A stretch of 64,000 bases of DNA, taken from Chamaelirium japonicum. Its lineage: Eukaryota > Streptophyta > Magnoliopsida > Liliales > Melanthiaceae. A model generated the notes under the pieces. That model did not search any database. It was given only the letters and a program-made list of their open reading frames with translations, and was not told where the DNA came from. The translations under genes and the position numbers were made by a program. Shown piece after piece: positions 2,348 to 47,830 of the stretch; the first letter of the stretch is position 1, and every line of letters begins with the position of its first letter. The DNA is taken from contig OX393550.1 in the NCBI GenBank assembly GCA_947650365.1, positions 120,840,374 to 120,904,373 on the forward strand. The letters run 5' to 3'.

Positions 2348-5113
2348 CGTACGTACAAATGAATTAGAATAGATACATTCGTGCAAAAGAATTAGAATGG
2401 ATTGTATGAATGAATTAGAATGGATCGTGCGAATGAATTAGAATGGATCGTACGAATGAATTAGAATGGATACATTCGTGCGAATGAATTAGAATGGATT
2501 GTACGAATGAATTAGAATGGATCGTACGAATGAATTAGAATGGATCGTACGAATGAATTAGAATAGATTGTGCGAATGAATTAGAATGGATCGTACGAAT
2601 GAAATAGAATAGATCGTACGAATCAAATAGAATGGATACAAATGAATTAGAATAGATCGTGCGAATGAATTAGAACGGATCGTATGAATGAAATAGAATG
2701 GATCGTATGAATTAGAATGGATCATACGAAGGAATTAGAATGGATCGTACGAATGAATTAGAATGGATCATACGAATGAATTAGAATGGATCGTACGAAT
2801 GAAATAGAATGGATCGTACGAATGAATTAGAATGGATCGTGCGAATGAATTAGAATGGATCATACGAATGAATTAGAGTGGATACATTCATACGAAGGAA
2901 TTAGAATGGATCGTACGAATAAATTAGAATGGATACATTCGTGCGAATGAATTAGAATGGATCGTATGAATGAATTAGAATAGATTGTGCAAATGAATTA
3001 GAATGGATCGTGCAAATGAATTAGAATGGATCGTACAAATGAATTAGAATGGATACATTCGTGCGTTCTAATTCATTCATACGATCAATTCTAATTCATT
3101 CGCACGAATGTATCCATTCTAATTCACTCGTACGATCCATTCTAATTCCTTGGTACGATCCATTCTAATTCCTACGAAGGAATTAGAATGGATCGTACGA
3201 AGGAATTAAAATGTACGATCTATTCTAATTCATTCGTACGATCCATTCTAATTCATTTGTATGATCCATTCTAATTCATTCGGACGAATGTATCCATTCT
3301 AATTCATTCGTACGATCCATTCTAATTCATTCGTACAATCCATTCTATTTCATTCGTACGATCCATTCTTACTCATTCGTATGATCCATTCTAATTCATT
3401 CATACGATCCATTCAAATTCATTCATACGATCCATTCTAATTCATTCGAACGATCCATTCTAATTCATTCGCACAATCTATTCTAATTCATTCGTACGAT
3501 CCATTCTAATTCATTCGCACGAATGTATCCATTCTAATTCATTCATACGATCCATTTTAATTCCTTCGTACGATCCACTCTAATTCATTTGCACAATCCA
3601 TTCTAATTCATTCATACGATCCATTCTAATTCATTCATACGATCTATTCTAATTCTTTCGCACGAATGTATCCATTCTAATTCATTCGCACGAATGTATC
3701 CATTCTAATTCATTCGTACGATCCATTCTAATTCATTCGCACGAATGTATCCATTCTAATTCATTCGTACGATCCATTCCGTGCGAATGAATTAGAATGG
3801 ATCATACGAATGAATTAGAATGGATCGTATGAATGAATTAGAATGGATCGTACAAAGGAATTGGAATGGATCGTACGAATGAATTAGAATGGATCGTACG
3901 AATGAATTAGAATGGATCGTACGAATGAATTAGATTGGATCGTATTAATGAATTAGAATGGATCGTACGAATGAATTAGAATGGATACATTCGTGCGAAT
4001 GAATTAGAATGGATCGTATGAATGAATTAGAATAGATCGTACGAATGAATTAGAATGGATCGTACGAATGAATTAGATTGGATCGTACGAATGAAATAGA
4101 ATGGATCATACGAATGAGTAAGAATGGATCGTATGAATGAATTAGATTGGATCGTATGAATGATTTTGAATGGATCGTGCGAATGAATTAGAATGAATCG
4201 TACGAATAAATTAGAATGGATCGTACGAATGAATTAGAATTCATACATTCGTGCAAAAGAATTAGAATGGATTGTATGAATGAATTAGAATGGATCGTGC
4301 GAATGAATTAGAATCGATCGTACGAATGAATTAGAATGGATCATAGGAATGAGTAAGAATGGATCGTATGAATAAATTAGATTGGATCGTATGAATGAAT
4401 TAGAATGGATCGTGCGAATGAATTAGAATGGATCGTACGAATGAATTAGAATGGATCGTACGAATGAATTAGAATAGATACATTCGTGCAAAAGAATTAG
4501 AATGGATTGTATGAATGAATTAGAATGGATCGTGCGAATGAATTAGAATGGATCGTACGAATGAATTAGAATGGATACATTTGTGCGAATGAATTAGAGT
4601 ACGATCCATTCTTACTCATTCGTATGATCCATTCTAATTCATTCGTACGAATGTATCCACTCTAATTCATTCGTACGATCCATTCTAATTCATTCACGTG
4701 ATCCATTCTAATTCATTCGTTCGATCCATTCTATTTCATTCGTACGATCCATTCTAATTCATTCGGACAATCTATTCTAATTCATTCGTACGATCCATTC
4801 TAATTCATTCGCACGATCTATTCTAATTCATTCGCACGATCCATTCTAATTCATTCATACGATCCATTCTAATTCATTCGCACGATCCATTCTAATTCAT
4901 TCATACGATCCATTCTAATTCATTCGTACGATCCATTCTAATTCATTCGCACAATCTATTCTAATTCATTCGTACAATCCATTCTATTTCTTTCGTACGA
5001 TCCATTCTTACTCATTCGTATGATCCATTCTAATTCATTCGCACGAATGTATCCATTCTAATTCATTCGTACGATCCATTCTAATTCCTTCGTACGATCC
5101 ATTCTAATTCCTT
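2348..5113 (+). repeat. Satellite higher-order repeat, copy A
   Basis: Begins at the marker CGTACGTAC. Strand blocks are plus 2348-3062, minus 3063-3172, plus 3173-3212, minus 3213-3779, plus 3780-4597 and minus 4598-5113. Internal markers are the switch at GTGCGTTCTAATTC (about 3062), the mini-inversion near 3173 and the CATTCCGTGCGAATG switch at about 3778. The next copy starts 2766 bp later. Confidence 0.85.
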
Positions 5114-7540
5114 CGTACGTACGAATGAATTAAAATGGATACATTCGTGCTAAAGAATTAGAATGGATTGTATGAATGAATTAGAATGGATCGTGCGAAT
5201 GAATTAGAATGGATCGTACGAATGAATTGGAATGGATACATTCGTGCGAATGAATTAGAATGGATTGTACGAATGAATTAGAATGGATCGTACGAATGAA
5301 TTAGAATAGATTTTGCGAATAAATTAGAATGGATCGTACGAATGAAATAGAATGGATCGTACGAATGAAATATAATGGATACAAATGAATTAGAATAGAT
5401 CGTGCGAATGAATTAGAATGGATCGTATGAATGAAATACAATGGATCGTATGAATTGGAATGGATCGTATGAAGGAATTAGAAAGGATCGTACGAATGAA
5501 TTAGAATGGATCATACGAATGAATTAGAATGAATCGTACGAATGAAATAGAATGGATCGTACGAATGAATTAGAATGGATCCTGCGAATGAATTAGAATG
5601 GATCGTACGAATGAATTAGAGTGGATACATTCATACGAAGGAATTAGAATGGATCGTACGAATGAATTAGAATGGATACATTCGTGCGAATGAATTAGAA
5701 TAGATCGAATGAATGAATTAGAATAGATTGTGCAAATGAATTAGAATGGATCGTACGAATGAATTAGAATGGATCGTACGAATGAATTAGAATGGATACA
5801 TTGGTGCGTTCTAATTCATTCATACAATCAATTCTAATTCATTCGCACGAATGTATCCATTCTAAATCATTCGTACGATCCATTCTAATTCCTTCGCATG
5901 ATCCATTCTAATTCGTACGAAGGAATTAGAATGGATCGTACCAAGGAATTAGAATGTACGATCTATTCTAATTCATTCGTACGATCCATTCTAATTCATT
6001 CGTATGATCCATTCTAAATTATTCGGACGAATGTATCCATTCTAATTCATTCGTACGATCCATTCTAATTCATTTGTACAATCCATTCTATTTCATTCGT
6101 ACGATCCATTCTTACTCATTCGTATGATCCATTTTAATTCATTCATACGATCCATTCTAATTCATCCATACGATCCATTCTAATTCATTCGTACGATCCA
6201 TTCTAATTCATTCGCACAATCTATTCTAATTCATTCATACGATCCATTCTAATTCATTCGCACGAATGTATCAATTCTAATTCATTCGTACGATCCATGC
6301 TAATTCCTTCGTACGATCCATTCTAATTCATTCGCACAATCCATTCTAATTCATTCATATGATCCATTCTAATTCATTCATACGATCTATTCTAATTCTT
6401 TCGCACGAATGTATCCATTCTAATTCATTCGCACGAATGTATCCATTCTAATTCATTCGTACGATCCATTCTAATTCATTCGCACGAATGTATCCATTCT
6501 AATTCATTCGTACGATCCATTCCGTGCGAATGAATTAGAATGGATCATACGAATGAATTAGAATGGATCGTATGAATGAATTAGAATGGATCGTACAAAG
6601 GAATTAGAATGGATCGTACGAATGAATTAGAATGGATCGTATGAATGAATTAGAATAGATCGTACGAATGAATTAGATTGGATCGTATTAATGAATTAGA
6701 ATGGATCGTGCGAATGAATTAGAATGGATACATTCGTGCGAATGAATTAGAATGGATCGTATGAATGAATTAGAGTGGATCGTACGAATGAATTAGATTG
6801 AATTGTACGAATGAAATAGAATGGATCATACGAATTAGTAAGAATGGATCGTATGAATGAATTAGATTGGATCGTATGAATGAATTAGAATGGATCGTGC
6901 GAATGAATTAGAATGGATCGTACGAATAAATTAGAATAGATCGTACGAATGAATTAGAATGGATACATTCGTGCAAAAGAATTAGAATGGATTGTATGAA
7001 TGAATTAGAATGGATCGTGCGAATGAATTAGAATGGATCGTACATATGAATTAGAATGGATCATACGAATGAGTAAGAATGGATCGTATGAATGAATTAG
7101 ATTGGATCGTATAAATGAATTAGAATGGATCGTGCGAATGAATTAGAATGGATCGTACGAATGAATTAGAAAGGATCGTACGAATGAATTAGAATGGATA
7201 CATTCGTGCAAAAGAATTAGAATGGATTGTATGAATGAATTAGAATGGATCGTGCGAATGAATTGGAATGGATCGTACGAATGAATTAGAATGGATACAT
7301 TTGTGCGAATGAATTAGAGTACGATCCATTCTTACTCATTCGTATGATCTATTCTAATTCATTCGTACGAATGTATCCACTCTAATTCATTCGTACGATC
7401 CATTCTAATTCATTCGCGCGATCCATTCTAATTCATTCGTATGATCCATTCTATTTCATTCATACGATCCATTCTTACTCATTCGTACGATCCATTCTAA
7501 TTCATTCGCACGAATGTATCCATTCTAATTCATTTGTACA
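5114..7540 (+). repeat. Satellite higher-order repeat, copy B
   Basis: Starts at the CGTACGTAC marker and follows copy A block by block: plus to about 5807, minus to 5917, short plus to 5955, minus to 6521, plus to 7317, then minus. It then departs from A and leads into a tail (about 7541-8340) shared with the tail after copy E. Confidence 0.8.
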
Positions 7541-8340
7541 ATGGATACATTTGTGCGAATGGATTAGAATGGATCGTGTGAAAGAATTAGAATGGATCAT
7601 GTGAATGAATTAGAATGGATCGTATGATTGAATTAGAATGGATCGTGCGAATGAATTAGAATGGATCGTCCGAATGAATTAGAATGGATCGTCCGAATGA
7701 ATTAGAATGGATCGTCCGAATGAATTAGTATGAATGAATTAGAATGGATGGTGCTAATGAATTAGAATGGATCGTACGAATGAATTAGAATGGATATATT
7801 CGTGCAAATGAATTAGAATGGATCGTATGAATGAATTAGAATGGATCGTACGAATGAATTAGAATGGATCATACGAATGAGTAAGAATGGATCGTATGAA
7901 TGAATTAGATTGGATCGTATGAATGAATTAGAATGGATCGTACGAATGAATTAGAATGGATACATTCGTGCAAAAGAATTAGAATGGATTGTATGGATGA
8001 ATTAGAATGGATCGTACAATCCATTCTAACTCATTCGCACGATCCATTCTAATTCATTCATACGATCCATTCTAATTCATTCACACGCACGAATACATTC
8101 GTACGATCCATTCTTACTCATTCGTACGATCCATTCTAATTCATTCATACGATCCATTCTAATTCATTCGCATGATCCTTTCTAATTCATTAATACGATC
8201 CAATCTAATTCATTCATACGATCCATTCTAATTCATTCGTACGATCCATTCTAATTCATTAGCACTATCCATTCTAATTCATTCATACGATCCATTCTAA
8301 TTCATTCATACGATCTATTCTAATTCTTTCGCACGAATGT
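7541..8340. repeat. Tail block shared with 47826-48650
   Basis: Shares a sequence of rare variants with the region after copy E. These are ACAATGGATACATTTGTG, then GTGTGAAAGAATTAG, then GAATTAGTATGAATG followed by GGTGCTAATG, then CACACGCACGAATACATTC near 8085 (matching about 48445). The two diverge near 8340 and 48650. Confidence 0.75.
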
Positions 8341-11300
8341 ATCCATTCTAATTCATTCGCACGAATGTATCCATTCTAATTCATTTGTACGATCCATTCT
8401 AATTCATTCGCACAATCTATCCTATTTCATTCGTACGATCCATTCTAATTCATTTGTACGATCCATTCTTACTCATTCGTACGATCCATTCTTACTCATT
8501 TATACGATCCATTCTAATTCATTCGCATACGAATGAATTAGAATGGATCATACGAATGAATTAGAATAGATTGTGCGAATGAATTAGAATGGATCGTACG
8601 AATGAATTTGGATGGATCGTACGAATGAATTAGAATAGATTGTGCGATATGAGTGAATTCGAATGGATCGTGCGAATGAATTAGAATAGATTGTACGAAT
8701 GAATTAGAATGGATCGTATGAATGAATTAGAATGGATCGTGCGAATGAATTAGAATAGATTGTGCGAATGAATTAGAATGGATCATACGAATGAATTAGA
8801 ATGGATACATTCGTGCGAATGAATTAGAATGGATCGTACGAATGAATTAGAATGGATTGTACAAATGTATCCATTCTAATTCATTCGTACGATCCATTCT
8901 AATTCCTTCGTACGATCCATTCTAATTCCTTCGTACGATCCATTCTAATTCATTCGTTCGTTAGAATGGATCGTATGAATGAATTAGAATGGATCGTACG
9001 CGTACGAATGGATTAGAATAGATACATTCGTGCGAATGAATTAGAATGGATCGTACGAATGAATTAGAATGGATCGTGCGAATGAATTAGAATGGATACA
9101 TTCGTGCGAATGAATTAGAATGGATCGTACGAATGACGTACGAATGAATTAGAATGGATACCTTCGTGCGAATAAATTAGAATGGATCGTATGAATGAAA
9201 TAGAATGGATCGTACGAAGGAATTAGAATGGAACGTACGAATGAAATAGAATAGATCGTACGTATGAATTAGAATGCATCATGCGAATGAATTATAATGG
9301 ATCGTACGAATGAATTAGGATGGATACATTCGTGCGAATGAATTAGAATGGATCGTAAGAATGAATTAGAATGGATACAATCGTGCGAATGAATTAGAAT
9401 GTATTAGAATGGATCATACGAATGAATTAGAATGGATCGTACGAATGAATTAGAATGGATCGTACGAATGAATTAGAATAGATCGTACGAATGAATTAGA
9501 ATGGATACATTCGTGCGAATAAATTAGAATGGATCATACGAAGGAATTAGAATGGATCGAATGAATTAGAATGGATCGTAAGAATGAATTAGAATGGATC
9601 GTGCGAATGAATTAGAATGGATCGTATGAATGAAATATAATGGATCATATGAATTAGAATGGATAGTACGAAGGAATTAGAATGGATCTTACGAAGGTGC
9701 GAATGAATTTGAATGGATCGTGCGAGTGAATTAGAATGGATCGTACGAATGAATTAGAATAGATCGTGCGAATGAATTAGAATGGATCGTACGAATGAAT
9801 TAGAATGGATCGTATGAATGAATTAGAATGGATACATACGAATGAATTAGAATGGATCGAATGAATGAATTAGATTGGATAGTATGAATGAATTAGAATG
9901 GATCGTGCGTCGTACGAAAGAATTAGAATGGGCCGTATTAATGAATTAGAATGGATCGTACGAAGGAATTAGAATGGATCGTACGAATGAATTAGAATGG
10001 ATCGTACGAATGAATTAGAATGGTTCGTACGAATGAATTAGAATGGATCGTATGAATGAATTAGAAAGGATCGTACGAAGGAATTAGAATGGATCGTACG
10101 AATGAATTAGAATGGATCGTAATAATGGATCGTACGTATGAATTTGTACGTATGAATGAATTAGAATGGATCGAATTAGAATGGATCGTACGAAGGAATT
10201 AGAATTCATTCGTACGATCCATTCTAATTCATTCGTATGATCCATTCTAATTCATTCGCACGATCCATTCTAATTCATTCATACAATCCATTCTAATTCA
10301 TTCGCACGATCCTTTCTAATTAATTCGTACGATCGTGCTAGTGAATTAGAATGGATACATTCGTACGATACATTCTAATTCCTTCGTACGATCCATTCTA
10401 ATTCTTTCGCACGATCCTTTCTAATTCATTCGTACGATCCATTCTAATTCATTCGTATGATTCATTCGTATGATCCATTCTAATTTATTCGTACGAATGT
10501 ATCCACTCTAATTCATTCATACGATGCTAATTCATTCGTACGATCCATTCTAATTCATTCGCACGATCCATTCTAATTCATTCATACAATCCAGTCTAAT
10601 TCATTCGTACGATCCATTCTAATTCATTCGTATGATCCATTCTAATTCATTCGCACAATCTATTCTAATTCATTCGTACAATCCATTCTAATTCATTCGC
10701 ACGATCCATTCTAATTCATTCGTACGATCCATTCTATTTCATTCGTATGATCCATTCTAATCCCGACGTACGATCCATTCTAATTCCGACATACGATCCA
10801 TTCTAATTCCTTCGTACGATCCATTCTATTTCATTCATATTATCCATTCTAATTCCTTCGTACGATCGATTCTTATTCATTCCCATGAATGTATTCATTC
10901 TAATTCATACGTACGATCCATTCTAATTCATTTATACGATCCAATCTAATTCATTCATACAATCCATTCTAATTCATTCGCACGAATTTATCCATTCTAA
11001 TTCATTCGTACGATCCATTCGAATTCATTCGCATGAATGTATCCATTCTAATTCATTCGTACGATCCATTCCGTGCGAATGAATTAGAATGGATCGTACG
11101 AATGTATTAGAATGGATCGTACGAAGGAATTAGAATGGATTGTACGAATGAATTAGAATGGATATATTCGTGCAAATGAATTAGAATGGATCGTACGAAT
11201 GATTAGAATAGATCGTACGAATGAATTAGAATGGATTGTATGAATGAATTAGATTGGATCGTATAAATGAATTAGAATGGATCGTACGAATGAATTAGAA

Positions 11301-12289
11301 TGGATACATTCGTGCGAATGAATTAGAATGGATCGTACGAATGAATTAGAATAGATTGTGCGAATGAATTAGAGTGGATCGTACAAATGAATTAGAATTG
11401 ATCGTACGAATGAATTAGAATAGATTGTGCGAATGAATTAGAATGGATCGTACGAATGAATTAGAATGGATCGTATGAATGAATTAGAATGGATCGTGTA
11501 TCCATTCTAATTCATTCGTACGATCCATTCTAATTCATTCGCACAATATATTCTAATTCATTCGTACAATCCATTCTAATTCATTCGCACGATCCATTCT
11601 AATTCATTCATACGATCCATTCTAATTCATTCGTACGATCTATTCTAATTCATTCGTACGATCCATTCTAATTCATTTGCACGAATATATCCATTCTAAT
11701 TCATTTGTACGATCCATTCTAATTCCTTCGTACGATCCATTCTAATTCATTCGTACGATCCATTCTAATTCATTCGCACGGAATGGATCGTACGAATGAA
11801 TTAGAATGGATACATTTGTGTGAATGAATTCAAATGGATCGTACGAATAAATTAGAATGAATAAATTCGTGCGAATGAATTAGAATGGATTGTATGAATG
11901 AATTAGATTGGATCGTATAAATGAATTAGAATGGATCGTACGTATGAATTAGAATAGATACATTCATGGGAATGAATAAGAATGGATCGTACGAAGGAAT
12001 TAGAATGGATCATGCGAATGAAATAGAATGGATCGTATGAAGGAATTAAAATGGATCGTACGAATGAATTAGAATGGATACATTCCGTACGATCCATTCT
12101 AATTCATTTAATGAATTAGAATGGATCGTACGAATGAAATAGAATGGATCGTACTATGAATTAGAATGGATCGTACGAATGAATTAGATTGGATCGTACG
12201 AATGAATTAGAATAGATCGTACGAATGAATTAGAATGGATACATTCGTGCGAATGAAATAGAATGGATCGTACGAATGAGTAAGAATGG
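8341..12289. repeat. Satellite lacking the 2.7-kb periodic structure
   Basis: Same 23/28-bp units in mixed orientation, without the CGTACGTAC-led block pattern. It includes long plus runs (about 8960-10205) and minus runs (about 10365-11073). Marker blocks shared elsewhere: 8850-8960 resembles 62640-62755; 10740-11070 resembles 48640-49140; 10110-10190 is the reverse complement of about 17180-17260. No coding sequence seen. Confidence 0.8.
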
Positions 12290-15050
12290 ATTGTACGAAT
12301 GAATTAGAATGGATCGTGCGAATGAATTAGAATGGATCGTGGGAATGAATTAGAATGGATCGTGCGAATAAATTAGAATGGATCTGGATACATTCGTGCG
12401 AATGAATTAGAATGGATCGTACGAGTACGAATGAGTAAGAATGGATCGTACGAATGAAATAGAATGGATTATACGAATGAATTAGAATGGATCGTACGAA
12501 TGAATTAGAATGGATCTTGTGAAAGAATTAGAATGGATCGTACGAATGAATTAGAATGGATACATTCGTGCCAAAGAATTAGAATGGATTGTATGAATGA
12601 ATTAGAATGGATCGTGCTAATGAATTAGAATGGATCGTACGAATGAATTAGAATGGATCGTATGAATGAATTAGAATAGATTGTGTGAAACGTACGAATG
12701 AATTAGAATAGATTGTGCGAATGAATTAGAATGGATCGTACGAATGAATTAGAATGGATAAACTCGTGCGAATGAATTAGAATGGATTGTACGAATGAAT
12801 TAGAATGGATCGTACGAAAGAATTAGAATGGATCGTACGAATAGATTAGAATGGATACATTCGTGCGAATGAATTAGAATGGATCATACGAATGAGTAAG
12901 AATGAAATATACAAATGAAATAGAATGGATTGTACGAATGAATTAGAATGGATTCATTCGTGCGAATGAATTAGAATCGATACATTCGTGCGAATGAATT
13001 AGAATGGATCGTACGAATGAGTAAGAATGGATCGTACGAATGAAATAGAATAGATTGTGTGAATGAATTAGAATGGATCGTGTGAAAGAATTAGAATGGA
13101 TTGTATGAATGAATTAGAATGGATTGTATGAATGAATTAGAATAGATTGTGCGAATGAATTAGAATGGATCGTACGAATGAATTAGAATGGATACATTCG
13201 TGCGAATGAATTAGAATGGATCGTACGAATGAGTAAGAATGGATCGTACAAATGAAACAGAATGGATTGTACAAATGAATTAGAATGGATTCATTCGAAT
13301 GAATTAGAATGGATCGTGTGAAAGAATTAGAATGGATTGTATGAATGAATTAGAATGGATCGTATGAATGAATTAGAATGGATCGTACGAATGAATTTGA
13401 ATGGATCGTACGAATGACTTAGAATGGATACATTCCGTACGATCCATTCTAATTCATTCGTACGATCTATTCTAATTCATCTATACAATCCATTCTAATT
13501 CATTCGTACGAAGGAATTAGAATGGATCGTACGAATGAATTAGAATGGATCATATGAATGAAATAGAATGGATCATACTTATGAATTAGAATGGATCGTA
13601 TGAATGAATTAGAATGGATCGTACGAATGAATTAGAATAGATCGTACGAATGAATTAGAATGCATACGTTCGTGCGAATGAATTAGAATGGATCGTACGA
13701 ATGACTAAGAATGGATCGTACGAATGAAATAGAATGGATTGTACGAAGGAATTAGAATGGATCATATGAATGAAATAGAATGGATCGTGTGAAAGAATTA
13801 GAATGGATTGTATGAATGAATTAGAATGGATCGTATGAATGAATTAGAATAGATTGTGCGAATGAATTAGAATGGATCGTACGAATGAAATAGAATGGAT
13901 ACATTCGTGCGAATAAATTAGTATGGATCGTACGAATGAGTAAGAATGGATCGTATGAATGAAATAGAATGGATTGTACGAATGAATTAGAATGGATTCA
14001 TTCGAATGAATTAGAATGGATCGTGTGAAAGAATTAGAATGGATTGTATGAATGAATTAGAATGGATCGTATGAATGAATTAGAATGGATCGTACGAACG
14101 AATTAGAATGGATCGTATGAATAAATTAGAATGGATACATTCCGTACGATCCCTTCTAATTCATTCGTACGATCTATTCTAATTCATTCATACAATCCAT
14201 TCTAATTCATTCGTACGAAGGAATTTGAATGGATCGTACGAATGAATTAGAATGGATCGTACGAATGAAATAGAATGGATCGTACTTATGAATTAGAATG
14301 GATCGTACAAATGAATTAGAATGGATCGTACGAATGAATTAGAATAGATCGTACGAATGAATTAGAATGGATACATTCGTGCGAATGAATTAGAATGGAT
14401 CGTACGAATGAGTAAGAATGGATTGTACGAATGAATTAGAATGGATCGTGCGAATGAATTAGAATGGATCATGCAAATGAATTAGAATGGATCTAGATAC
14501 ATTCGTGCGAATGAATTAGAATGGATCGTACGAATGAATTAGAATGGATCGTACAAGTACGAATGAGTAATAATGGCTCGTACGAATGAAATAGAATGGA
14601 TTGTACGAATGAATTAGAATGGATCGTACGAATGAATTAGAATGGATTGTGTGAAAGAATTAGAATGGATCGTACGAATGAATTAGAATGGATACATTCG
14701 TGCAAAAGAATTAGAATGGATTGTATGAATGAATTAGAATGGATCGTGCTAATGAGTTAGAATGGATCGTACGAATGAATTAGAATGGATCGTATGAATG
14801 AATTAGAATAGATTGTGCGAATGAATTAAAATGGATCGTACGAATGAATTAGAAAGGATAAATTTGTGCGAAGGAATTAGAATAGATTGTATGAATGAAT
14901 TAGAATGGATCATACGAATGAATTAGAATGGATCGTACGAATGAATTAGAATGGATACATTCGTGCGAATGAATTAGAATGGATCATACGAATGAGTAAG
15001 AATGGATAGTACGAATGAAATAGAATGGATTGTATGAATGAATTAGAATG
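12290..15050 (+). repeat. Second higher-order pattern, related blocks about 2.1 kb apart
   Basis: A block with the rare features GGATCTGGATACATTC (12382 area), GAGTACGAATGAGTAAG (about 12424) and GTGTGAAAGAATTAG recurs about 2.1 kb downstream near 14490-14650, and again at 51980-52330. Inside lies a shorter duplication of about 0.71 kb: the minus insert at 13436-13505 recurs at 14146-14215, and its preceding plus blocks recur with it. Confidence 0.7.
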
Positions 15051-18000
15051 GATTCATCTATGCGAATGAATTAGAATGGATCGTACGAATGAATTAGAAT
15101 GGATCATACGTATGAATTAGAATGGATACATTCATGGGAATGAAGAAGAATGGATCGTACGAATGAATTAGAATGGATCGTATGAATGAATTAGAATGGA
15201 TATATTCGTGCAAATGAATTAGAATGGATCGTATGAATGAATTAGAATGGATCGTACGAATGAATTAGAATGGATCGTACGAATGAATTAGAATGGATCA
15301 TACGAATGAGTAAGATTGAATCGTATGAATGAATTAGATTGGATCGTATGAATGAATTAGAATGGATCGTGCGAATGAATAAGAATGGATCGTATGAATG
15401 AAATAGAATGGATTGTACGAATAAATTAGAATGGATCGTACGAATGAATTAGAATGGATCGTATGAATGAATTAGAATGGATCGTGCGAATGAATTCTAA
15501 TTCATTCATAGGTGCGAATGAATTAGAATGGATCGTACGAATGAATTAGAATGGATACATTCGTGCGAATGAATTAGAATGGATCGTATCAATGAATTAG
15601 AATGGATCGTGCGAATGAGTTAGAATGGATCGTATGAATGTATTAGAATGGATCATGCGAATGAATTAGAATGGATCGTACGAAGGAATTAGAATGGATC
15701 GTATGAATACGATCCATTCTAATTCATTCGTATGATCCATTCTTATTCATTCCCATGAATGTATCTATTCTAATTCATATGTACGATCCATTCTAATTAA
15801 TTTATACGATCCAATCTAATTCATTCATACAATCCATTCTAATTCATTCGCACGAATGTATGATCCATTCTTACTCATTCGTACGATCCATTCTAATTCA
15901 TTCGCACGAATGTATCCATTCTAATTCATTCGTACGATCCATTCTAATTCATTCGCACAATCTATTCTAATTCATTGGATCGTACGAAGGAATTAGAACG
16001 GATCGTACGAATGAATTAGAATGGATACATTCATGCGAATGAGTTAGAATGGATCGTACGAGTGAATTAGAAAGGATCGTACGAATGAATTAGAATGGAT
16101 ACATTCGTGCGAATGAATTAGAATGGATCATACGAATGAGTAAGAATGGATCGTACGAATGAAATAGAATGGATCGTACGAAGGAATTAGAATGGAACAT
16201 ACGAATGAATTAGAATGGATCGTATGAATGAATTAGATTGGATCGTATGAATGAATTAGAATGGATCGTACGAATGAATTAGAATAGATGATACGAACGA
16301 ATTAGAATGGATCGTACGAATATATTAGAATGGATCGTACGAATGAATTAAAATGGATCGTATGAATGAATTAGAATGGATACATTCGTGCGAATGAATT
16401 AGAATGGATCGTACGGAATGAATTAGAATAGATCGTATCAATGAATTTGGATGGATCGTGCGAATGAATTAGAATGGATCGTACGTACGAAGGAATTAGT
16501 ATGGATCGTACGAAGGAATTAGAATGGATCGTACGAATGAATTAGATTAGATTGTGCGAATGAATTAGAATGGATCGTACGAAGGAATTAGAATGGATAC
16601 ATTCGTGCGAATGAATTAGAATGGATCGTACGAATGAGTAAGAATAGATTGTATGAATGAATTAGAATGAATCGTATGAATGAATTAGATTAGATTGTAT
16701 TAATGAATTAGAATGGATCGTGCGAATGAATTAGAATGGATCGTACGAATGAATTCGAATAGATTGTGCGAATGAATTTGAATGGATCGTACAAATGAAT
16801 TAGAATGGATCGTAATAATGGATCGTACGAATGAAATTGAATGGATCGTACGAATGAATTAGCATGGATCATTCTAATTTATTCGTAATTCGTACGATCC
16901 ATTCTAATTCATTAGCACGATCTATTCTAATTCATTCGTACGATCTATTCTATTTTATTCGTACGATCCATTCTTACTCAATCGTATGATCCATTCTAAT
17001 TCATTCGCATGAATGTATCCATTATAATTCATTCGTACGATCCATTCTAATTCATTCGCACGATCCATTCTAATTCATTAATACGATCCAATCTAATTCA
17101 TTCATACGATCCATTTTAATTCATTCGCACGAATGTATCCACTCTAATTCATTCGTACAATCCATTCTAATTCATTCGTACGATCCATTCTAATTCGATC
17201 CATTCTAATTCATTCATACGTACAAATTCATACGTACGATCCATTATTACGATCCATTCTAATTCATTCGTACGATCCATTCTAATTCCTTCGTACGATC
17301 CATTCTAATTCATTCGTATGTATCCATTCTAATTCATTCGCACAATCCATTCTAATTCATTAATACGATCCATTCTAATTCATTCGTACAAAGCACGATC
17401 CATTCTAATTTATTCCTACGATCCAATCTAATTCATTCATGCGATCCATTCTAATTCATTCGTATGTATCCATTCTAATTCATTCATACGATCCATTCTA
17501 ATTCATTCGTACGATTAGAATGGATCGTACGAATGAATTAGAATGGATACATTCGTGCGAACGAATTAGAATGAAGGAATTAGAATGGATCATGTGAATG
17601 AATAAGAATTGATCGTACGAAGGAATTAGAATGGATCGTACGAATGAATTAGAATGGATACATTCGTGCGAATGAATTAGAATGGATCGTACGAATGAAT
17701 TAGAATGGACTGTGCGAATGAATTAGAATGGATCGTACGAATGAATTAGAATGGATGCATTCGTGTGAATGAATTAGAATGGATCGTACGAATGAGTAAG
17801 AATGGATCGTACATTCGTGCGAATGAATTAGAATGGATTGTATGAATGAATTAGATTGGATCGTATAAATGAATTAGAATGGATCGTACGTATGAATTAG
17901 AATGGAAACAATCATGGGAATGAATAAGAATGGATCGTACGAATGAATTAGAATGGATCGCATTCATACGGTCCATTCTAATTCCTTCGTACGATCCATT

Positions 18001-19398
18001 CTAATTCATTCGTACGATCCATTCTAATTCATTCATATGATCCATTCTAATTCATTCGTACGATCCATTCTAATTCATTCATACGATCCATTCTAATTCA
18101 TTCTCACGAATGTATCCATTCTAATTCATTCGTACGATCCATTCTAATTCATTCGCACGAATGTATCCTACGAATGAATTAGAATGGATATATTCGTGCA
18201 AATGAATTAGAATGGATCGTATGAATGAATTAGAATGGATCGTACGAATGAATTAGAAATGAATCGTACGAATGAAATAGAATGGATCGTACGAATGAAT
18301 TAGAATGGATCATGCTAATGATAAGAATGGATCGTGCGAATGAATTAGAATTGATCGTACGACTGAATTAGAATGGATCGTGCTAATGAATTAGAATAGA
18401 TTGTGCGAATGAATTAGAATAGATTGTGCGAATGAATTAGAATGGATCGTACGAATGAATTAGAATGGATACATTCGTGCGAATGAATTAGAATGGATCG
18501 TATGAATGAATTAGATTGGATCGTATTAATGAATTAGAATGAATCGTGCGAATGAATTAGAATGGATCGTACGAATGAATTAAATGGATACATTCGTGCG
18601 AATGAATTAGAATAGATCATACGATTGAGTAAGAATGGATCGTACGAATGAAATAGAATAGATCGTACGAATGAATTAGAATGGATCGTGCTAATGAATT
18701 AGAATGGATCGTACGAATTACGAATAAATTAGAATCAATTAGAATGGATTGTATGAATGAATTAGAATGGATCGTATGAATGAATTAGAATGCATTCTAA
18801 TTCATTCGTACGATCTATTCTAATTCATTTGCACGAATGTATCCATTCTAATTCATTCGTACGATCCATTCTAATTCATTCGCACGATCCATTCTAATTC
18901 ATTCATACTATCCAATCTAATTCATTCGTACTATCCATTCTAATTCATTCGCATACGATCCAATCTAATTCATTCATACGATCCATTCTAATTCATTCGC
19001 ACGAATGTATCCATTCTAATTCATTTGTACGATCCATTATAATTCATTCGCACAATCTATTCTAATTCATTCGTACGATCCATTCTAATTCATTCGCACG
19101 ATTCATTCTAATTCATTCGCACGATCCATTCAAATTCATTCATATGATCCATTCTAATTCATTCGCACGATCCATTCTAATTCATTCATACGATCCATTC
19201 TAATTCATTCGTACGATCCATTCTAATTCATTCGCACAGTCTATTCTAATTCATCCGTACGATCCATTCTATTACTTTCGTACGATCCATTCTTACTCAT
19301 TCGTATGATCCATTCTAATTCATTCGCACGAATGTATCCATTCTAATTCATTCGTACGATCCATTCTAATTCCTTCGTACGATCCATTCTAATTCCTT
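15051..19398. repeat. Satellite of mixed orientation between the second pattern and copy C
   Basis: Only 23/28-bp units. The marker with CATGGGAATGAA occurs in plus orientation near 15128 and 17908, and its complement occurs near 15742. The minus block 16870-17170 resembles 61850-62090. No gene or foreign insertion is seen. Confidence 0.8.
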
Positions 19399-29284: not shown

Positions 29285-30339
29285 CTAAGCAGGGCTAGCA
29301 CCCGCACCGTCGTCATCGTCGCGCTTCTTCTTGTTTGACCTTTCGGCCTTATACTTCTCAATGGCGTCCAGCGCGCCCTTCTGGAGGAGCTCGCCCAGCT
29401 GCGACTGGAGGCGCTCTCGCTGGGTGTTGAGGTCGCGGAGATGTTCCTCCTTCAGCGCCGCGATCTCGTCCCTGGAGGCCGCCACCAGGTTGCGGAGCTC
29501 GAGGACCTCTTTCTGGGCGGCCACTTTGGCTTTGGTCGCCTCTTGTAGGTCCGCAAGGGCACGGGCACGAGCGTCCTCGACCAAGGCGAGCCCAATGGTG
29601 AGGGTGGCAGCCCGCTGGCGCAGCTGGGCAACCTCTGTATCAACAGAGGCGGCCTGCTAGCGCAGCCGGTCCACCTCAGCTCGGAGCTCGCCGGAGTGGT
29701 CCATTTGGTGAAGCCGGTGGATGTGCTCGTCTACTCTCCTCTCCGAGTCGTGGAGAGTGTCATCGTAGAGGGCGACCGTGTCCCCCGCGACACCAGCGAC
29801 CTCATCGGCGAGAGCCCGGCTGACCCGCTTTACCTATGGCAAGGGAAAACAGTTAAGAGTTAGAAGTTAGAACGGAGATTTGGGACAAAGAAGTGTGAAG
29901 GTAATCTTACCTCGAGAAGCCGGTTGATGAGGGCGATGTAGGGAGTCCGGGCGAAAATGTTGCGCCCCAGGATCTCCCGTAAGAAGTAGGGGGCGCGCTC
30001 GGGGTCGCCTGAAGAGGGGCCCACCTGGCTCACCTCGGTTGGGGTAGCCGGGGGAGGCACATCGATGGCAATAGCGGCGGGCTCGCCCCCTTGAGCGCCG
30101 GCACCCCCTTCCTTGATAGGGGGAGGTGGAGCGGCTTCCCCTTGCCCGGACAAGCCTGGGTCTGAGGCTTCCGAGCTGGAGCTCGAAAGATCGTCCAGGA
30201 TGGCCCCCAGGTCCGGAGACCAGTAGACCAACCCGCCAAGCTCCTCCGGGAGGATAGGAACCTCGAGAGCAGAGGGCGCGGAGGGAGCAGCGGGCGTAGG
30301 CGCGTTGGAAGCAGCAGGCGCGGGCTCGGGCGCGAGCGC

Positions 30340-30650
30340 GCTGGAAGCGGCGGGCGCAGGCTCGGGCGCGGGCGCACTGGGAGCAGAGGGCGCGGGCGCG
30401 CTGGAAGCAGCAGCCGCGGGCACGGGCTCGGGCGTGGGCGCGCTGGGAGCAGAGGGCGCGGGCGTGCTGGAAGCGGCGGGCGCGGGTTCGGGCACGGGCG
30501 CGCTGGGAGCAGAGGGCGCGGGCGCGCTGGAAGTAGCAGCCGCGGGCGCGGGCATGGGCTCGGGCGCGGGCACGCTGGGAGCAGAGGGCACGGGCGCGCT
30601 GGAAGCAGCAGCCGCGGGCGCGGGCGCGGGCTCGGACACGGGCGCGCTGG
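30340..30650 (-). repeat. In-frame Pro/Ala-rich coding minisatellite
   Basis: CTGGGAGCAGAGGGC-type repeats start at about 30377, 30443, 30503 and 30575 on the plus strand. The spacings of 60-72 bp are all multiples of three, so the antisense frame stays open through the repeat (PAPSAPSAP-like units). The opposite strand also gives a long Gly/Ala-rich frame, which is a mirror artefact. Confidence 0.85.
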
Positions 30651-31328: not shown

Positions 31329-33462
31329 TGTTGGAAGTTAATCCGGGTCAGAGGCTCGCAGCGGAAGCGATTTGGCGGTCGAAAGACCGTTCATGGTCCA
31401 CGTTACACTATTTAAACTTTTCATAGAAACTAATCTACATATGTGTGCATGTGTATGCACGAGAATCGAAAACCCCTAACGGCAATCTAGCATAATGATT
31501 AACTAGCATGGATGCAAATCATAATGCTCGCTAGATCTACATGTTAGATTACACATACCTTTCGTACGGATCTTTTAACCGTGGAGAATTGTCTTCTTTG
31601 TCGATGGAGACGGAAGATCGTTCGCGAAGATGCCGACGGTACGAATGGAGATATTGCCTTCTTGTTCACCCGATCTCACACGATACACGGAACGTCGCTC
31701 TCAGATCTCTGAGTGCCTCCGAAGAATGACCCTTCTCCTTCTTCAGAACTCCACGCGAGGAAGACGAAGTAGCAAGCGGGAAACTGAGAGAGATTAGGGA
31801 GAGAACTAGAGAGATTAGAGATAGAGGGGGTTCGGTTTTTTTTGACTCATGGGGCCGGTGCCCATAGGTACTTTTATAGGGCCGGCCAACCCCCTTGGAT
31901 AAGGATCCAAGGGGATAATGACCCCCCACGATTATCTCTCCATTATCTCCTTTTTATCTCTCCGCTTATTTATCCGTTTTCCCACTTTTTAGGGCTCGAT
32001 CTTAACCGTTTTTATCGCCCCATCCCTATCTATATGGCCGGCCCTATAGATGAGGGATTCTTATCCCTACATCATAGGGCTGGCCCTAGCAAGGTGTCCC
32101 ACCACTAGGGTCGGCCAACAGTGAGGTCCGGCAGAGTGAGGTTTTTACCAAAACGCCCCGATGCCTCATTTTGACCATTTCTAGCATGCGATACCTAGCG
32201 GCCACTTCTTAAGTGATCTTTACTAGTTACCTACTATTAACTGAGGCCACCGGAGGGTGCCTCTAGCAAAGTCAACTAGTCAACTCGCAACATACCCCGG
32301 TGCATCGCACCTATGCAGCGAAGTTCACTTATGGCTAGGGATTACTACATGCGACTCTGCACTAGTCTCGGGCTCAACCCTTAGTACTCGTATGTAGTTA
32401 CGCATCTACCGTGCTCTAGTGCCAAGCACACACGGAGCGTATACTTCTTTCTTCCTCATGCTTATGGTGTTCCGAGGAGACGGTTCAAGAACCGTACATA
32501 ATGTTGATAAGGTGGAACCATCAGGGACCGGGGTTCATGGCTTCCAACTCAAGCTCGATCGACACACTACCCGAGTGTACCATCGATCTTCTGAGCTCGA
32601 GTTAACCAGCGTAGCCACCCAGAGTGCGACGCAGGCTACACTCCAATTCATCCAGACTTACTATGTTCTCCATCATACCCCTGCTCTCCGCTTAGTAGTG
32701 GTAAACCCGCTGTCCCTCCACTTGATGCCATGATTCACTTCGAGCGGTGAAGACTACCGTCAGACTCGAATGATCATATGACTTGGTTCCTTCCAGGTTG
32801 ACCTATACATCGTACCTATGATTATCCCGTCGAGTAATCGAACCCGGTCAACAGTCAAACTGATGACCACCAGGCCTGGGTTTGGTACAGTGTAAGTCAC
32901 ACCAAGGACCGCACCTCCCATCAGGGGTGTGGATGGCCTGCAGGAGTGACACACTAATGCAACGCCAGCCGGGTAACCCAGTACACCGTGGTTTTGGATC
33001 ACTGCATATGGATCCTCACACATTGGTGCGCCAAAGCACCACGCAACTGGTTAGTCCATCAGACGTGGTTCCTCAGGGTTTAGGACCGTTTTACCCTAAG
33101 CAGAAACACGGCTTAGTGTACCAGTGTCTGCTCACTGATCTGTACACCGTGTTAGTTCCGTTCAGCCACAGACACTGTGCCTGGTGATGACCATGGTGAA
33201 GACATCCCATGAACTGTCATCGCCAACAGCTTACCATGATGAGGCGACCAACCTGATCATAGCTGCGAACTTATTTAGGTTATACGGGACCAATCCACTT
33301 AGTCTTCAACTCAGTGGACTACCATATAACCATGGCTCTATGTTCCCTAAAGAACACGTAACTATGTTACGCACCTATATGCATCTCATATATTAATAAC
33401 TATAAATCTTTATTAGACCAAAACATAAAGTTTTACAAGCTTAAAACACATCAATCTCAACA
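31329..33462 (-). repeat. Copia 3' LTR
   Basis: 2,134 bp, bounded by TGTTGGAAG and CTCAACA on the plus strand. It sits downstream of the coding region in the element's own sense, next to the purine tract. A minus-strand TATA box lies at 31872-31878. Open frames inside it occur almost identically in the other LTR and are not genes. Confidence 0.95.
31872..31878 (-). promoter_or_regulatory. TATA box in Copia 3' LTR
   Basis: TATAAAA on the minus strand (TTTTATA on plus), matching the box in the 5' LTR at 39734-39740. In this LTR it would drive read-out into the Gypsy antisense region, if active. Confidence 0.5.
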
Positions 33463-39188: not shown

Positions 39189-39190
39189 AT

Positions 39191-41324
39191 TGTTGGAAGT
39201 TAATCCGGGTCAGAGGCTCGCAGCGGAAGCGATTTGGCGGTCGAAAGACCGTTCATGGTGCACGTTACACTATTTAAACTTTTCATAGAAACTAATCTAC
39301 ATAAGTGTGCATGTGTATGCACGAGAATCGAAAACCCCTAACGGCAATCTAGCGTAATGATTAACTAGCATGGATGCAAATCATAATGCTCGCTAGATCT
39401 ACATGTTAGATTACAGAAACCTCTCGTACGGATCTTTTAACCGCGGAGAATTGTCTTCTTTGTCGATGGAGACGGAAGATCGTTCGTGAAGATGCCGACG
39501 GTACGAATGGAGATGTTGCCTTCTTGTTCACCCGATCTCACACGATGCACGGAATGTCGCTCTCGGATCTCTGAGTGCCTCCGAAGAACGACCCTTCTCC
39601 TTCTTCAGAACTCCACGCGAGGAAGACGAAGTAGCAAGCGGGAAACGGAGAGAGATTAGGGAGAGAACTAAAGAGATTAGAGAGAGAGGGGGTTCGGTTT
39701 TTTTTGACTCATGGGGCCGGCGCCCATAGGTCCTTTTATAGGGCCGGCCAACCCCCTTGGATAAGGATCCAAGGGGATAATGACCCCCCATGATTATCTC
39801 TCCATTATCTCCTTTTTATCTCTCCGCTTATTTATCCGTTTTCCCACTTTTTAGGGCTCGATCTTAACCGTTTTTATCGCCCCATCCCTATCTATATGGC
39901 CGGCCCTATAGATGAGGGATTCTTATCCCTACATCATAGGGCCGGCCCTAGCAAGGTGTCCCACCACTAGGGTCAGCCAACAGTGAGGTCCGGCAGAGTG
40001 AGGTTTTTACCAAAATGCCCCGACGCCTCATTTTGACCATTTCTAGCGTGCGATACCTAGCGGCCACTTCTTAAGTGATCTTTACTAGTTACCTACTATT
40101 AACTAAGGCCACCGGAGGGTGCCTCTAGCAAAGTCAACTAGTCAACTCGCAAAATACCCCGGTGCATCACACCTATGCAGCGAAGTTCACTTATGGCTAG
40201 GGATTACTACATGCGACTCTGCACTAGTCTCGGGCTCAACCCTTAGTACTCGTATGTAGTTATGCATCTACCGTGCTCTAGTGCCAAGCACAGACGGAGC
40301 GTATACTTCTTTCTTCCTCATGCTTATGGTGTTCCGAGGAGACGGTTCAAGAACCGTACATAATGTTGATAAGGTGGAACCATCAGGGACCGGGGTTCAT
40401 GGCTTCCAACTCAAGCTCGATCGACACACTACCCGAGTGTACCATCGATCTTCTGAGCTCGAGTTAACCTGCGTAGCCACCCAGAGTGCGACGCAGGCTG
40501 CACTCCAATTCACCCAGACTTACTATGTTCTCCATCATACCCCTGCTCTCCGCTTAGTAGTGGTAAACCCGCTGTCCCTCCACTTGATGCCATGATTCAC
40601 TTCGAGCGGTGAAGACTACCGTCAGACTTGAATGATCATATGACTTGGTTCCTTCCAGGTTGACCTATACATCGTACCTATGATTACCCCGTCGAGTAAT
40701 CGAACCCGGTCAACAGTCAAACTGATGACCACCAGGCCTGGGTTTGGTACAGTGTAAGTCACACCAAGGAACGCACCTCCCATCAGGGGTGTGGATGGCC
40801 TGCAGGAGTGACACGCTAATGCAACGCCAGCTGGGTAACCCAGTACACCGTGGTTTTGGATCACTGCATATGGATCCTCACACATTGGTGCGCCAAAGCA
40901 CCACGCAACTGGTTAGTCCATCAGACGTGGTTCCTCAGGGTTTAGGACCGTTTTACCCAAAGCAGAAACACGGCTTAGTGTACCAGTGTCTGCTCACTGA
41001 TCTGTACACCGTGTTAGTTCCGTTCAGCCACAGACACTGTGCCTGGTGATGACCATGGTGAAGACATCCCATGTACTGTCATCGCCAACAGCTTACCATG
41101 ATGAGGTGACCAACCTGATCATAGCTGCGAACTTATTTAGGTTATATGGGACCAATCCACTTAGTCTTCAACTCAGTGGACTACCATATAACCATGGCTC
41201 TCTGTTCCCTAAAGAACACGTAACTATGTTACGCACCTATATGCATCTCATATATTAATAACTATCAATCTTTATTAGACCAAAACATAAAGTTTTACAA
41301 GCTTAGAACACATCAATCCCAACA
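39191..41324 (-). repeat. Copia 5' LTR
   Basis: 2,134 bp, the same length as its partner at 31329-33462 and about 98% alike by eye. It lies next to the primer site, so it is the promoter LTR in the minus-strand element. Differences from its partner are mostly transitions. Confidence 0.95.
39734..39740 (-). promoter_or_regulatory. TATA box in Copia 5' LTR
   Basis: Minus-strand CCTATAAAAGG, about 1.58 kb from the outer LTR edge and 545 bp from the primer-site side. This gives a long U3 and an R-U5 of roughly 0.5 kb. It is the likely core promoter of the Copia element. Confidence 0.6.
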
Positions 41325-42975: not shown

Positions 42976-43053
42976 CGACTGGCGCTCCCAATTTGACCGG
43001 CATACGCAATAAGACTCCTGAGCAAGCGTCAAAGTCTCCTTGGCCGCTCCCTT

Positions 43054-43065
43054 AGAAGGGGGTAA
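43054..43065 (+). other. Gypsy polypurine tract
   Basis: AGAAGGGGGTAA lies directly before the 3' LTR start TGTTGGGGG, the expected place for the plus-strand primer. Confidence 0.8.
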
Positions 43066-44087: not shown

Positions 44088-44092
44088 GATCG
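44088..44092. repeat. Target-site duplication GATCG, right
   Basis: Pairs with 23440-23444. The satellite continues from here in the same orientation and phase. Confidence 0.85.
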
Positions 44093-45356
44093 TACGAATG
44101 AATTAGAATAGATCGTACAAAGGAATTAAAATGGATCGTACGAATGAATTAGAATGGATCGTACGAATGAATTAGAATGGATCGTACGAATGAATTAGAT
44201 TGGATCGTATTAATGAATTAGAATGGATCGTACGAATGAATTAGAATGGATACATTCGTGCGAATGAATTAGAATGGATCGTATGAATGAATTAGAATGG
44301 ATCGTACGAATGAATTAGAATGGATCGTACGAATGAATTAGATTGGATCGTACGAATGAAATAGAATGGATCATACGAATGAGTAAGAATGGATCGTATG
44401 AATGAATTAGATTGGATCGTATGAATGAATTAGAATAGATCGTGCGAATGAATTAGAATGGATCATACGAATAAATTAGAATGGATCGTACGAATGAATT
44501 AGAATAGATACATTCGTGCAAAAGAATTAGAATGGATTGTGTGAATGAATTAGAATGGATCGTGCGAATGAATTAGAATGGATTATACGAATGAATTAGA
44601 ATGGATCATACGAATGAGTAATAATGGATCGTATGAATGAATTAGATTGGATCGTATGAATGAATTAGAATGGATCGTGCGAATGAATTAGAATGGATCA
44701 TACGAATGAATTAGAATGGATCGTACGAATGAATTAGAATGGATACATTCGTGCAAAAGAATTAGAATGGATTGTATGAATGAATTAGAATGGATCGTGC
44801 GAATGAATTAGAATGGATCGTATGAATGAATTAGAATGGATACATTTGTGCGAATGAATTAGAGTACGATCCATTCTTACTCATTCGTATGATCCATTCT
44901 AATTCATTCGTACGAATGTATCCACTCTAAATCATTCGTACGATCCATTCTAATTCATTCGCGCGATCCATTCTAATTCATTCGTATGATCCATTCAATT
45001 TCATTCGTACGATCCATTCTAATTCATTCGCACAATCTATTCTAATTCATTCGTACGATCCATTCTAATTCATTCGCATGATCTGTTCTAATTCATTAGC
45101 ACGATCCATTCTAATTCATTCATACGATCCATTCTAATTCATTCGCACGATCCATTCTAATTCATTCATACGATCCATTCTAATTCATTCGTACGATCCA
45201 TTCTAATTCATTCGCACAATCTATTCTAATTCATTCGTACGATCCATTCTATTTCTTTTGTACGATTCATTCTTACTCATTCGTATGATCCATTCTAATT
45301 CATTCGCACGAATGTATCCATTCTAATTCATTCGTACGATCCATTCTAATTCCTTC
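44088..45356 (+). repeat. Satellite higher-order repeat, copy D, right piece
   Basis: Continuation of copy D after the Gypsy insertion: plus block to about 44865, then minus to the next CGTACGTA marker at 45357. It matches 20800-22061 of copy C in block order and size. Confidence 0.85.
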
Positions 45357-47830
45357 GTACGTATGAATGAATTAGAATGGATACATTCGTGCAAAAGAAT
45401 TAGAATGGATTGTATGAATGAAGTAGAATGGATCGTGCGAATGAATTAGAATGGATCGTACGAATGAATTAGAATGGATACATTCGAGCGAATGAATTAG
45501 AATGGATTGTACGAATGAATTAGAATGGATCGTACGAATGAATTAGAATGGATCGTACGAATGAATTAGAATAGATTGTGCGAATGAATTAGAATGGATC
45601 GTACGAATGAAATAGAATGTATCGTACGAATGAAATAGAATGGATACAAATGAATTAGAATAAATCGTGCGAATGAATTAGAATGGATCGTATGAATGAA
45701 ATAGAATGGATCGTATGAATTAGAATGGATCGTACGAAGGAATTAGAAAGGATCGTACGACTGAATTAGAATGGATCATACGACTGAATTAGAATGTATC
45801 GTACAAATGAAATAGAATGGATCATACGAATGAATTAGAATGGATCGTGCGAATGAATTAGAATGGATCGTACGAATGAATTAGAGTGGATACATTCATA
45901 CGAAGGAATTAGAATGGATCGTACGAATGAATTAGTATGGGTACATTCGTGCGAATGAATTAGAATGGATCGTATGAATGAATTAGAATAGATTGTACAA
46001 ATGAATTAGAATGGATCGTGCGAATGAATTAGAATGGATCGTACGAATGAATTAGAATAGATACATTCGTGCGTTCTAATTCATTCATACGATCAATTCT
46101 AATTCATTCGCGCGAATGTATCCATTCTAATTCATTCGTACGATCCATTCTAATTCCTTCGTACGATCCATTCTAATTCGTACGAAGGAATTAGAATGGA
46201 TCGTACGAAGGAATTAGAATGTACGATCTATTCTAATTCATTCGTACGATCCATTCTAATTCATTCGTATGATCCATTCTAATTCATTCGGACGAATGTA
46301 TCCAATCTAATTCATTCGTATGATCCATTCTAATTCATTCGTACAATCCATTCTATTTCATTCGTACGATCCATTCTTACTCATTCGTATGATCTATTCT
46401 AATTCATTCATACGATCCATTCTAATTCATTCATACGATCCATTCTAATTCATTCATACGATCCATTCTAATTCATTCGCATAATCTATTTTAATTCATT
46501 CATACGATCCATTCTAATTCATTCGCACGAATGTATCCATTCTAATTCATTTGTACGATCCATTCTAATTCTTTCGTACGATCCATTCTAATTCATTCAC
46601 ACAATCCATTCTAATTCATTCATACGATCCATTCTAATTCATTCATACGATCTATTCTAATTCTTTCGCACGAATGTATCCATTCTAATTCATTCGCACA
46701 AATGTATCCATTCTAATTCATTCGTACGATCCATTCTAATTCATTCGCTCGAATGTATCCATTCTAATTCATTCGTACGATCCATTCCGTGCGAATGAAT
46801 TAGAATGGATCATACGAATGAATTAGAATGGATCGTATGAATGAATTAGAATGGATCGTACAAAGGAATTAAAATAGATCGTACGAATGAATTAGAATGG
46901 ATCGTACAAATGAATTAGAATGGATCGTACGAATGAATTAGATTGGATCGTATTAATGAATTAGAATGGATCGTACGAATGAATTAGAATGGATACATTC
47001 GTGCGAATGAATTTGAATGGATCGTATGAATGAATTAGAATGGATCGTACGAATGAATTAGAATGGATCGTACGAATGAATTAGATTGGATCGTACGAAT
47101 GAAATAGAATGGATCATACGAATGAGTAAGAATGGATCGTATGAATGAATTAGATTGGATCGTATGAATGAATTAGAATGGATCGTGCGAATGAATTAGA
47201 ATGGATCGTACGAATAAATTAGAATGGATCGTATGAATGAATTAGAATGGATACATTCGTGCAAAAGAATTAGAATGGATTATACGAATGAATTAGAATG
47301 GATCGTGCGAATGAATTAGAATGGATCGTACGAATGAATTAGAATGGATCATACGAATGAGTAAGAATGGATCGTATGAATGAATTAGATTGGATCGTAT
47401 GAATGAATTAGAATGGATCGTGCGAATGAATTAGAATGGATCGTACGAATGAATTAGAATGGATCGTACGAATGAATTAGAATGGATGCATTCGTGCAAA
47501 AGAATTAGAATGGATTGTATGATTGAAGTAGAATGGATCGTGCGAATGAATTAGAATGGATCGTACGAATGAATTAGAATGGATACATTTGTGTGAATGA
47601 ATTAGAGTACGATCCATTCTTACTCATTCGTATGATCGATTCTAATTCATTCGTACGAATGTATCCACTCTTATTCATTCGTACGATCCATTCTAATTCA
47701 TTCGCGCGATCCATTCTAATTCATTCGTATGATCCATTCTGTTTCATTCGTACGATCCATTCTTACTCATTCGTACGATCCATTCTAATTAATTCGCACG
47801 AATGTATCCATTCTAATTCATTTGTACAAT
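45357..47830 (+). repeat. Satellite higher-order repeat, copy E
   Basis: Blocks: plus to about 46073, minus to 46180, short plus to 46222, minus to 46787, plus to 47610, then minus. It leads into the tail 47826-48650, which copies the tail after B. Confidence 0.85.

Follow-up and report, generated by a model that had tools for sequence, protein, structure and literature searches.

How does a satellite that changes strand again and again come to change it at the same points in successive copies? The question was raised by a 64,000-bp stretch of the 1.519-Gb genome (C2:120840374-120904373, contig OX393550.1), which is called the window here and belongs to a holocentric plant, whose spindle attaches along the whole chromosome length. 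An initial annotation had read five copies (A to E) of a unit of about 2.7 kb in the window, each built of six blocks of alternating strand, and had proposed that the amplified unit already held its inversions. The five copies were confirmed to share homologous strand-switch points, and the switch junctions were found to behave as inherited markers, which is new here. The reading preferred below, with a probability of roughly 80%, is that the unit is a higher-order repeat of the satellite monomers Chio1 and Chio2, in which rare short-homology strand switches were followed by the copying of long blocks and then by divergence with little exchange between neighbours.

The satellite at the locus consists of 23- and 28-bp monomers in mixed orientation, which match Chio1 and Chio2 of Chionographis japonica (PMC10264360). 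For Chio, monomers of 23 and 28 bp differing by 5 bp and arrays of mixed orientation have been described (Kuo et al. 2023, PMC10264360), and the orientation is reported to alternate frequently. A higher-order cluster of Chio1/2, CL73, is enriched with CENH3, and CENH3 enrichment was published for Chio arrays in general (PMC10264360). An exact 39-mer of the 23-bp repeat occurred 535,170 times in forward and 542,462 times in reverse orientation across the genome. Samples of C2 at 120.56 and 121.00 Mb were likewise satellite, so that the position of the window would fit the inside of a centromere unit. Blocks were called by a hidden Markov model (HMM) of Chio1 and Chio2 on both strands, and nine contiguous stretches were decoded, most of which, the window flanks excepted, had been picked for carrying the unit. 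In these nine stretches the two-form monomer model decoded 249,295 bp of satellite (about 9155 Chio1 and about 1437 Chio2 monomers) with 440 switches, that is one per 567 bp, and 73 of the switches were located in the window.

The copies are given below in window positions, with the HMM blocks in bp and signed by strand.

2348 to 5113, plus strand: copy A, blocks +714 -105 +43 -566 +819 -519.
5114 to 7539, plus strand: copy B, blocks +691 -105 +43 -566 +796 -221, then exit at junction X1.
19399 to 22061, plus strand: copy C, blocks +657 -105 +43 -566 +796 -496, the first copy behind the leader.
22062 to 23444, plus strand: left part of copy D, with the 0.11-kb minus block mostly deleted, terminating in the target-site copy GATCG.
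23445 to 44087, no strand assigned: long terminal repeat (LTR) retrotransposon inside copy D, flanked by GATCG on both sides and holding a nested element.
44088 to 45356, plus strand: right part of copy D, starting with the second GATCG.
45357 to 47827, plus strand: copy E, blocks +714 -105 +43 -566 +819 -221, then exit at X1.

A marker, CGTACGTAC, had been placed at 2348, 5114, 19399, 22062 and 45357. It was present at the first four, and these unit starts are four of its seven plus-strand sites in the window (2348, 5114, 16480, 19399, 22062, 51031 and 60367), while position 45357 reads CGTACGTAT; on both strands the marker gave 13 matches in the window against 0.11 expected in shuffles. The periods of 2766 and 2663 bp were correct, and so was that of 2647 bp once the LTR element and one 5-bp copy of its target site were excluded. 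The six-block pattern held in A, B, C and E, at switch points named J0 to J5 and with small length offsets. It did not hold in D (+765 -566 +(49, insertion, 782) -496), where the 0.11-kb minus block is reduced to about 20 bp and therefore falls below HMM calling. Block lengths differed among the window copies by 23 to 57 bp, in steps of near-monomer length. The departure of B and E in the last block was also found, and both leave at the junction X1 (7539 and 47827), which is common to copies elsewhere.

When aligned up to 215 bp past J5, the five copies were 95.5-97.0% identical and their block boundaries were homologous, with no non-homologous boundary in the alignment. Identity over 18 unit copies was 93.9-97.3% against mostly 82-86% for off-register satellite pairs, which is the mark of a higher-order repeat. 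The search of the genome for more copies, suggested with the original claim, found them on C2, C6, C8, C10 and C12 among the fetched stretches; scoring covered the best 40 of 10768 candidates, so that there are at least as many copies as counted. A Blast comparison of the unit with all the fetched stretches was set aside, since monomer similarity swamped the signal. Among the fetched copies J0 to J5 recurred with homologous flanks on C2, C8, C10 and C12, and four of the six on C6 as well, which bears out the view that the unit carried its inversions before amplification.

The unit was 82% alike to its own reverse complement, the same as off-register satellite, and on this ground a whole-unit palindrome or true inverted dimer was rejected. 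Inverted blocks of short subrepeats are reminiscent of a foldback-type transposable element, whose inverted ends are long and repetitive, but such an element can hardly be credited as the source of the unit, because the arrays run on in the same satellite on both sides of it and its match to the reverse complement is no better than that background.

The inheritance of the switches could be followed through junction families. The 438 junctions that had full flanks were compared with one another in either orientation, restricted to pairs of one type lying no more than two HMM states apart. Flank similarity within a class was bimodal; similarity of at least 0.85 over 240-bp flanks was reached by more than 2300 of 5007 same-class pairs and by 19 of 3383 sampled different-class pairs. 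At a threshold of 0.86 there were 122 families, of which 65 were singletons and 46 spanned at least two chromosomes, and the number of families ranged from 100 to 146 over thresholds of 0.82 to 0.90. The 73 window junctions fell in 40 families, and 70 of the 73 had a homologue in another stretch, although such fractions are not genome-wide estimates because the stretches were picked for carrying the unit.

Motif counts over the whole genome were also made. The 71-bp double junction J2-J3 had 209 matches with at most 3 mismatches, located at least on C1, C2, C3, C5, C6, C8, C9 and C12 among the 100 matches listed. Single junctions were matched 136 times (J1) and 131 times (J5) with at most 1 mismatch, and 96 times (J0) with at most 3. 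These single-junction counts were dropped as proof of descent, for a phase-shifted control junction itself matched 83 places, and among the motif counts the evidence of descent was restricted to the double junction J2-J3, the exit X1 and a junction of a long interspersed nuclear element (LINE) described below. The control is an amplified junction in its own right, its 83 matches being of one identical sequence on C1, C2, C3, C5, C7, C9, C10 and unplaced contigs.

How the switches arose was studied in 103 families with a member flanked on either side by a block of 40 bp or more (48 of the 438 junctions, which lie beside a block shorter than 40 bp, were excluded). The mean microhomology at these 103 independent junctions was 1.77 bp against 0.79 bp for random phase pairs (0 of 5000 resamples). 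Microhomology of 2-6 bp was found at 30 junctions with 17.7 expected (15 of 5000 resamples had as many), and that of at least 7 bp at 10 junctions with 1.2 expected (0 of 5000). By eye, six of those ten lay at the palindrome TCGTACGA, one at its one-base variant and three at a Chio2-type sequence. The excess suggests that the switches began as joining events or template switches at short homologies and were then spread by the copying of whole blocks; the data do not separate joining from switching.

It might be argued instead that switches recur at preferred monomer phases, so that shared points would be hot spots and not signs of descent. The excess microhomology, which extends to 8 bp at the palindrome, and a control junction common across the genome would fit. 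This is nevertheless very improbable, since 240-bp flank similarity was high in same-class pairs and rare in different-class pairs, the double junction J2-J3 was found 209 times, and the order was common over tens of junctions.

Another Chio tandem unit near 1.83 Mb of C8 (C8:1826001-1834000), 3046 bp long and present in two copies 90% alike, has the J1-J3 trio but neither J0 nor J4. On this evidence, which falls short of proof, the trio may predate J0 and J4.

A tree was built from the 18 unit copies with 2414 columns and 137 informative sites, leaving aside the reverse-oriented copies of C6 and of the stretch C8c as well as copies without J5. From the barcode neighbours 14 of the 18 copies could be labelled by their place in the array. 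Four copies were too ambiguous for a label (copy A and C12_12339076, which both lie behind the LINE, together with C8a_1509253 and C8b_1590020), and C12_12380480 was labelled as last in spite of an exit junction that decodes slightly differently (20.2, not X1). A post-leader group (support 97) joined copy C of C2 with two copies of C12 and one of C10, and a pre-exit group (support 99) joined B and E of the window with three copies of C12 and one from C2 4.13 Mb. On the 14 labelled copies, place needed 2 changes, as few as in 0 of 10000 shuffles, and chromosome needed 7, as few as in 10000 of 10000; with all 18 copies, chromosome labels needed 9 changes (8165 of 10000 shuffles as few). A single clade of the five window copies was rejected by the approximately unbiased (AU) test (p 6e-6), and so was a single clade of the eight C12 copies (p 1.4e-5). 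Copies thus grouped by array place across chromosomes, which further backs inherited switching and means that neighbours were not homogenised; local homogenisation, usual in higher-order repeats though not obligatory, was not seen in the 14 labelled copies. Short internal branches and long end branches gave the tree the shape expected when a burst is followed by divergence of each copy on its own.

The unit was shown to be a module within a larger composite, and the order of junctions in this composite is found again at other sites in the genome. The other parts of the window are as follows.

1 to 2315, plus strand: 3' part of the LINE (about 6.3 kb), inserted 36 bp before J0, with the same insertion on C12.
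7540 to 8019, plus strand: exit segment X1-X2 behind copy B, common to E and other loci.
8528 to 19398, plus strand: leader, Chio satellite over about 11 kb, in which the junctions have an order of their own that is common to C12.
47828 to 48376, plus strand: exit segment X1-X2 behind copy E, by HMM and junction families.
48377 to 64000, no strand assigned: tail, with a switch order as at C12 12.401-12.415 Mb and partly as at C2 4.135-4.145 Mb.

Leader, two to three units and exit make up a composite of about 17 kb, of which two were counted by eye on C2 and three on C12. Inheritance extends to the exit of B and E: the X1 family had nine members (B and E, the others on C12, C6, C8 and at C2 4.13 Mb), and with at most 3 mismatches X1 was found at 20 genome places, 14 of them on C2, C5, C6, C8 and C12 and six on unplaced contigs.

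Junction orders were compared by local alignment of the family labels, with 200 shuffles each (100 for C12). Between C2 and C12, 64 junctions were matched (score 96, shuffled maximum 8). The other stretches gave 13 matched junctions at C2 4.13 Mb (20 against 8), 11 and 11 in two C8 stretches (18 against 11 and 20 against 13), 8 on C6 (12 against 6) and 8 on C10 (16 against 11). When the C12 stretch was extended by 5 kb per side and junction classes were used, 83 junctions were matched (score 114, where 100 shuffles reached 10 at most). The junction order shared by C2 and C12 covers window coordinates -13951 to 67821, which is 82 kb of C2, the right end being the end of the fetched C12 data; about 27 kb of it is LTR element and LINE.

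The LINE precedes J0 by 36 bp on C2 and by 35 bp on C12, and the satellite matches on each side. Its left junction was found at exactly two genome places with at most 3 mismatches, C2 and C12. A comparison of the two LINEs showed 127 differences in 6277 sites (115 in 6165 outside CpG), and the unit copies adjoining them are 97.3% identical.

Unequal crossing over and local gene conversion could also have built and homogenised the higher-order repeat in place, with distant copies made by short-tract conversion. Tandem copies with near-monomer length steps fit unequal exchange, and non-allelic gene conversion is named in published models. The copies, however, group by array place across chromosomes and not with their neighbours, against local turnover, and a LINE with common satellite flanks at one site and a shared tract of 82 kb are against short tracts, so this course of events is rather improbable.

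Under the preferred reading of a higher-order repeat with inherited switches, rare strand switches would have come about by joining or template switching at short homologies, in some cases at the 8-bp palindrome TCGTACGA of the monomer. Long blocks bearing the switches would then have been copied in tandem, at 2.7 kb and then at about 17 kb, and also into other centromere units, in tracts tens of kb long, after which the copies would have diverged by point mutation with little exchange between neighbours. A stronger form of this, that very long tracts of some 80 kb or more, with their transposons, are copied between chromosomes to seed or extend centromere units and that the arrays are then frozen without homogenisation, is put forward tentatively, as possible rather than probable.

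Several points weigh against the preferred reading. Chief among them, the 12.3-Mb stretch of C12 could be the other allele of the 120.8-Mb array of C2, misplaced in scaffolding, in which case there was no long transfer between C2 and C12. The assembly is a hifiasm primary assembly, with the word 'purge' absent from the main text of PMC10264360, and a contig total of 1.526 Gb against a 1C value of 1.368 Gb (PMC10264360) would fit a misplaced allele. Both stretches lie in satellite-rich DNA, and a LINE junction present exactly twice with about 2% divergence is possible for alleles. On the other hand, colinear pieces above the shuffled maxima were found at C2 4.13 Mb, C6, C8 and C10, and so many colinear loci are more than alleles of one diploid locus can supply. 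Three composites on C12 with two on C2 argue the same way, and a probe of the DNA primase small subunit gene gave one place, by a single short exon match, which is weak and a sample of one. A misplaced allele is thus considered unlikely, though less so than local turnover.

The other points concern the markers themselves. Matches to J0 alone extended to more chromosomes than the whole unit was seen on, some members of the J4 family lie in the leader, and the control junction matched as widely as noted above. No microhomology was present at 37 of the 103 independent junctions. The internal branches of the tree were very short and several supports were below 70 (some inner nodes 49-67). In the stretches C8c (6 against 8) and C8d (4 against 4) the junction order stayed within the shuffled maxima. 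None of the fetched C12 copies holds the LTR element of copy D, and yet the divergence between its terminal repeats (33 of 1012 sites, 20 of 872 outside CpG) is no less than that of the LINE pair, so that insertion order and divergence are not in clean agreement. An LTR insertion younger than the split of C2 and C12 was found unsupported by the same comparison (33/1012 against 127/6277).

The LTR element has further structure. Direct repeats at 31329-33462 and 39191-41324, which are 97.9% identical, are probably terminal repeats that bound a nested element some 10 kb long. The outer element also holds a 78-bp tandem repeat (28469-28787) and GC-rich tandem repeats of 60/66 bp (30275-30650).

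Three other observations were made on the satellite and its surroundings. In the 28-bp monomers (e.g. around window position 2474) the extra 5 bp of Chio2 form a near-palindrome, ATTCGTGCGAAT, and the 28-bp variant may therefore itself have begun as a very short strand switch. On C5, among the best 40 of the 10768 candidates, unit matches scored almost equally at 41209099 and 41342693, which are 133.6 kb apart, and again at 40861870 and 41070868; this suggests large duplications inside one centromere unit (40.86-41.34 Mb). A non-satellite stretch of 4.7 kb (C2:120949699-120954373) has at least 30 further long matches of 96-99% identity on many contigs, among the best 31 of 7706 candidates, and it is probably a recently active transposable element.

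Compared with known systems, the likeness to published Chio (PMC10264360) lies in the monomers, their mixed orientation and a higher-order cluster, all of which are already published. No description of the 2.7-kb unit, the conserved switch order or the long tracts between centromere units was found in the searched Chio literature, supplements aside, and within the same scope no report was found that Chio units group by array place or that Chio switch points carry microhomology. The Chama satellite of Chamaelirium luteum, from the sister genus, also has the 9-bp TTCGTACGA and a higher-order structure but is homogeneous and consistently oriented, unlike Chio (PMC12722358). In Tribolium madens, macro-dyads of TmSat1/TmSat2 have conserved inversion sites in abundant (peri)centromeric satellite arrays, repeated as cassettes (PMC13081366), and conserved inversion sites were likewise found here through the junction families of the fetched stretches. 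The macro-dyads are mostly two subarrays of kilobases to tens of kb tending to symmetry (PMC13081366), whereas the Chio unit has six unequal blocks (714/105/43/566/819/519) in 2.7 kb and symmetry at background.

How the roughly 100 Chionographis centromere units spread is treated as unexplained in the literature consulted, which names gene conversion and circular DNA among the candidates. Strand-switch junctions are specific and slowly lost markers within an otherwise uniform satellite, by which the descent of arrays is readable. They point to copying of long tracts and to little homogenisation afterwards, which differs from how satellite evolution is usually pictured. If seeding by long tracts is true, the junction barcode could reconstruct the descent of these roughly 100 centromere units.

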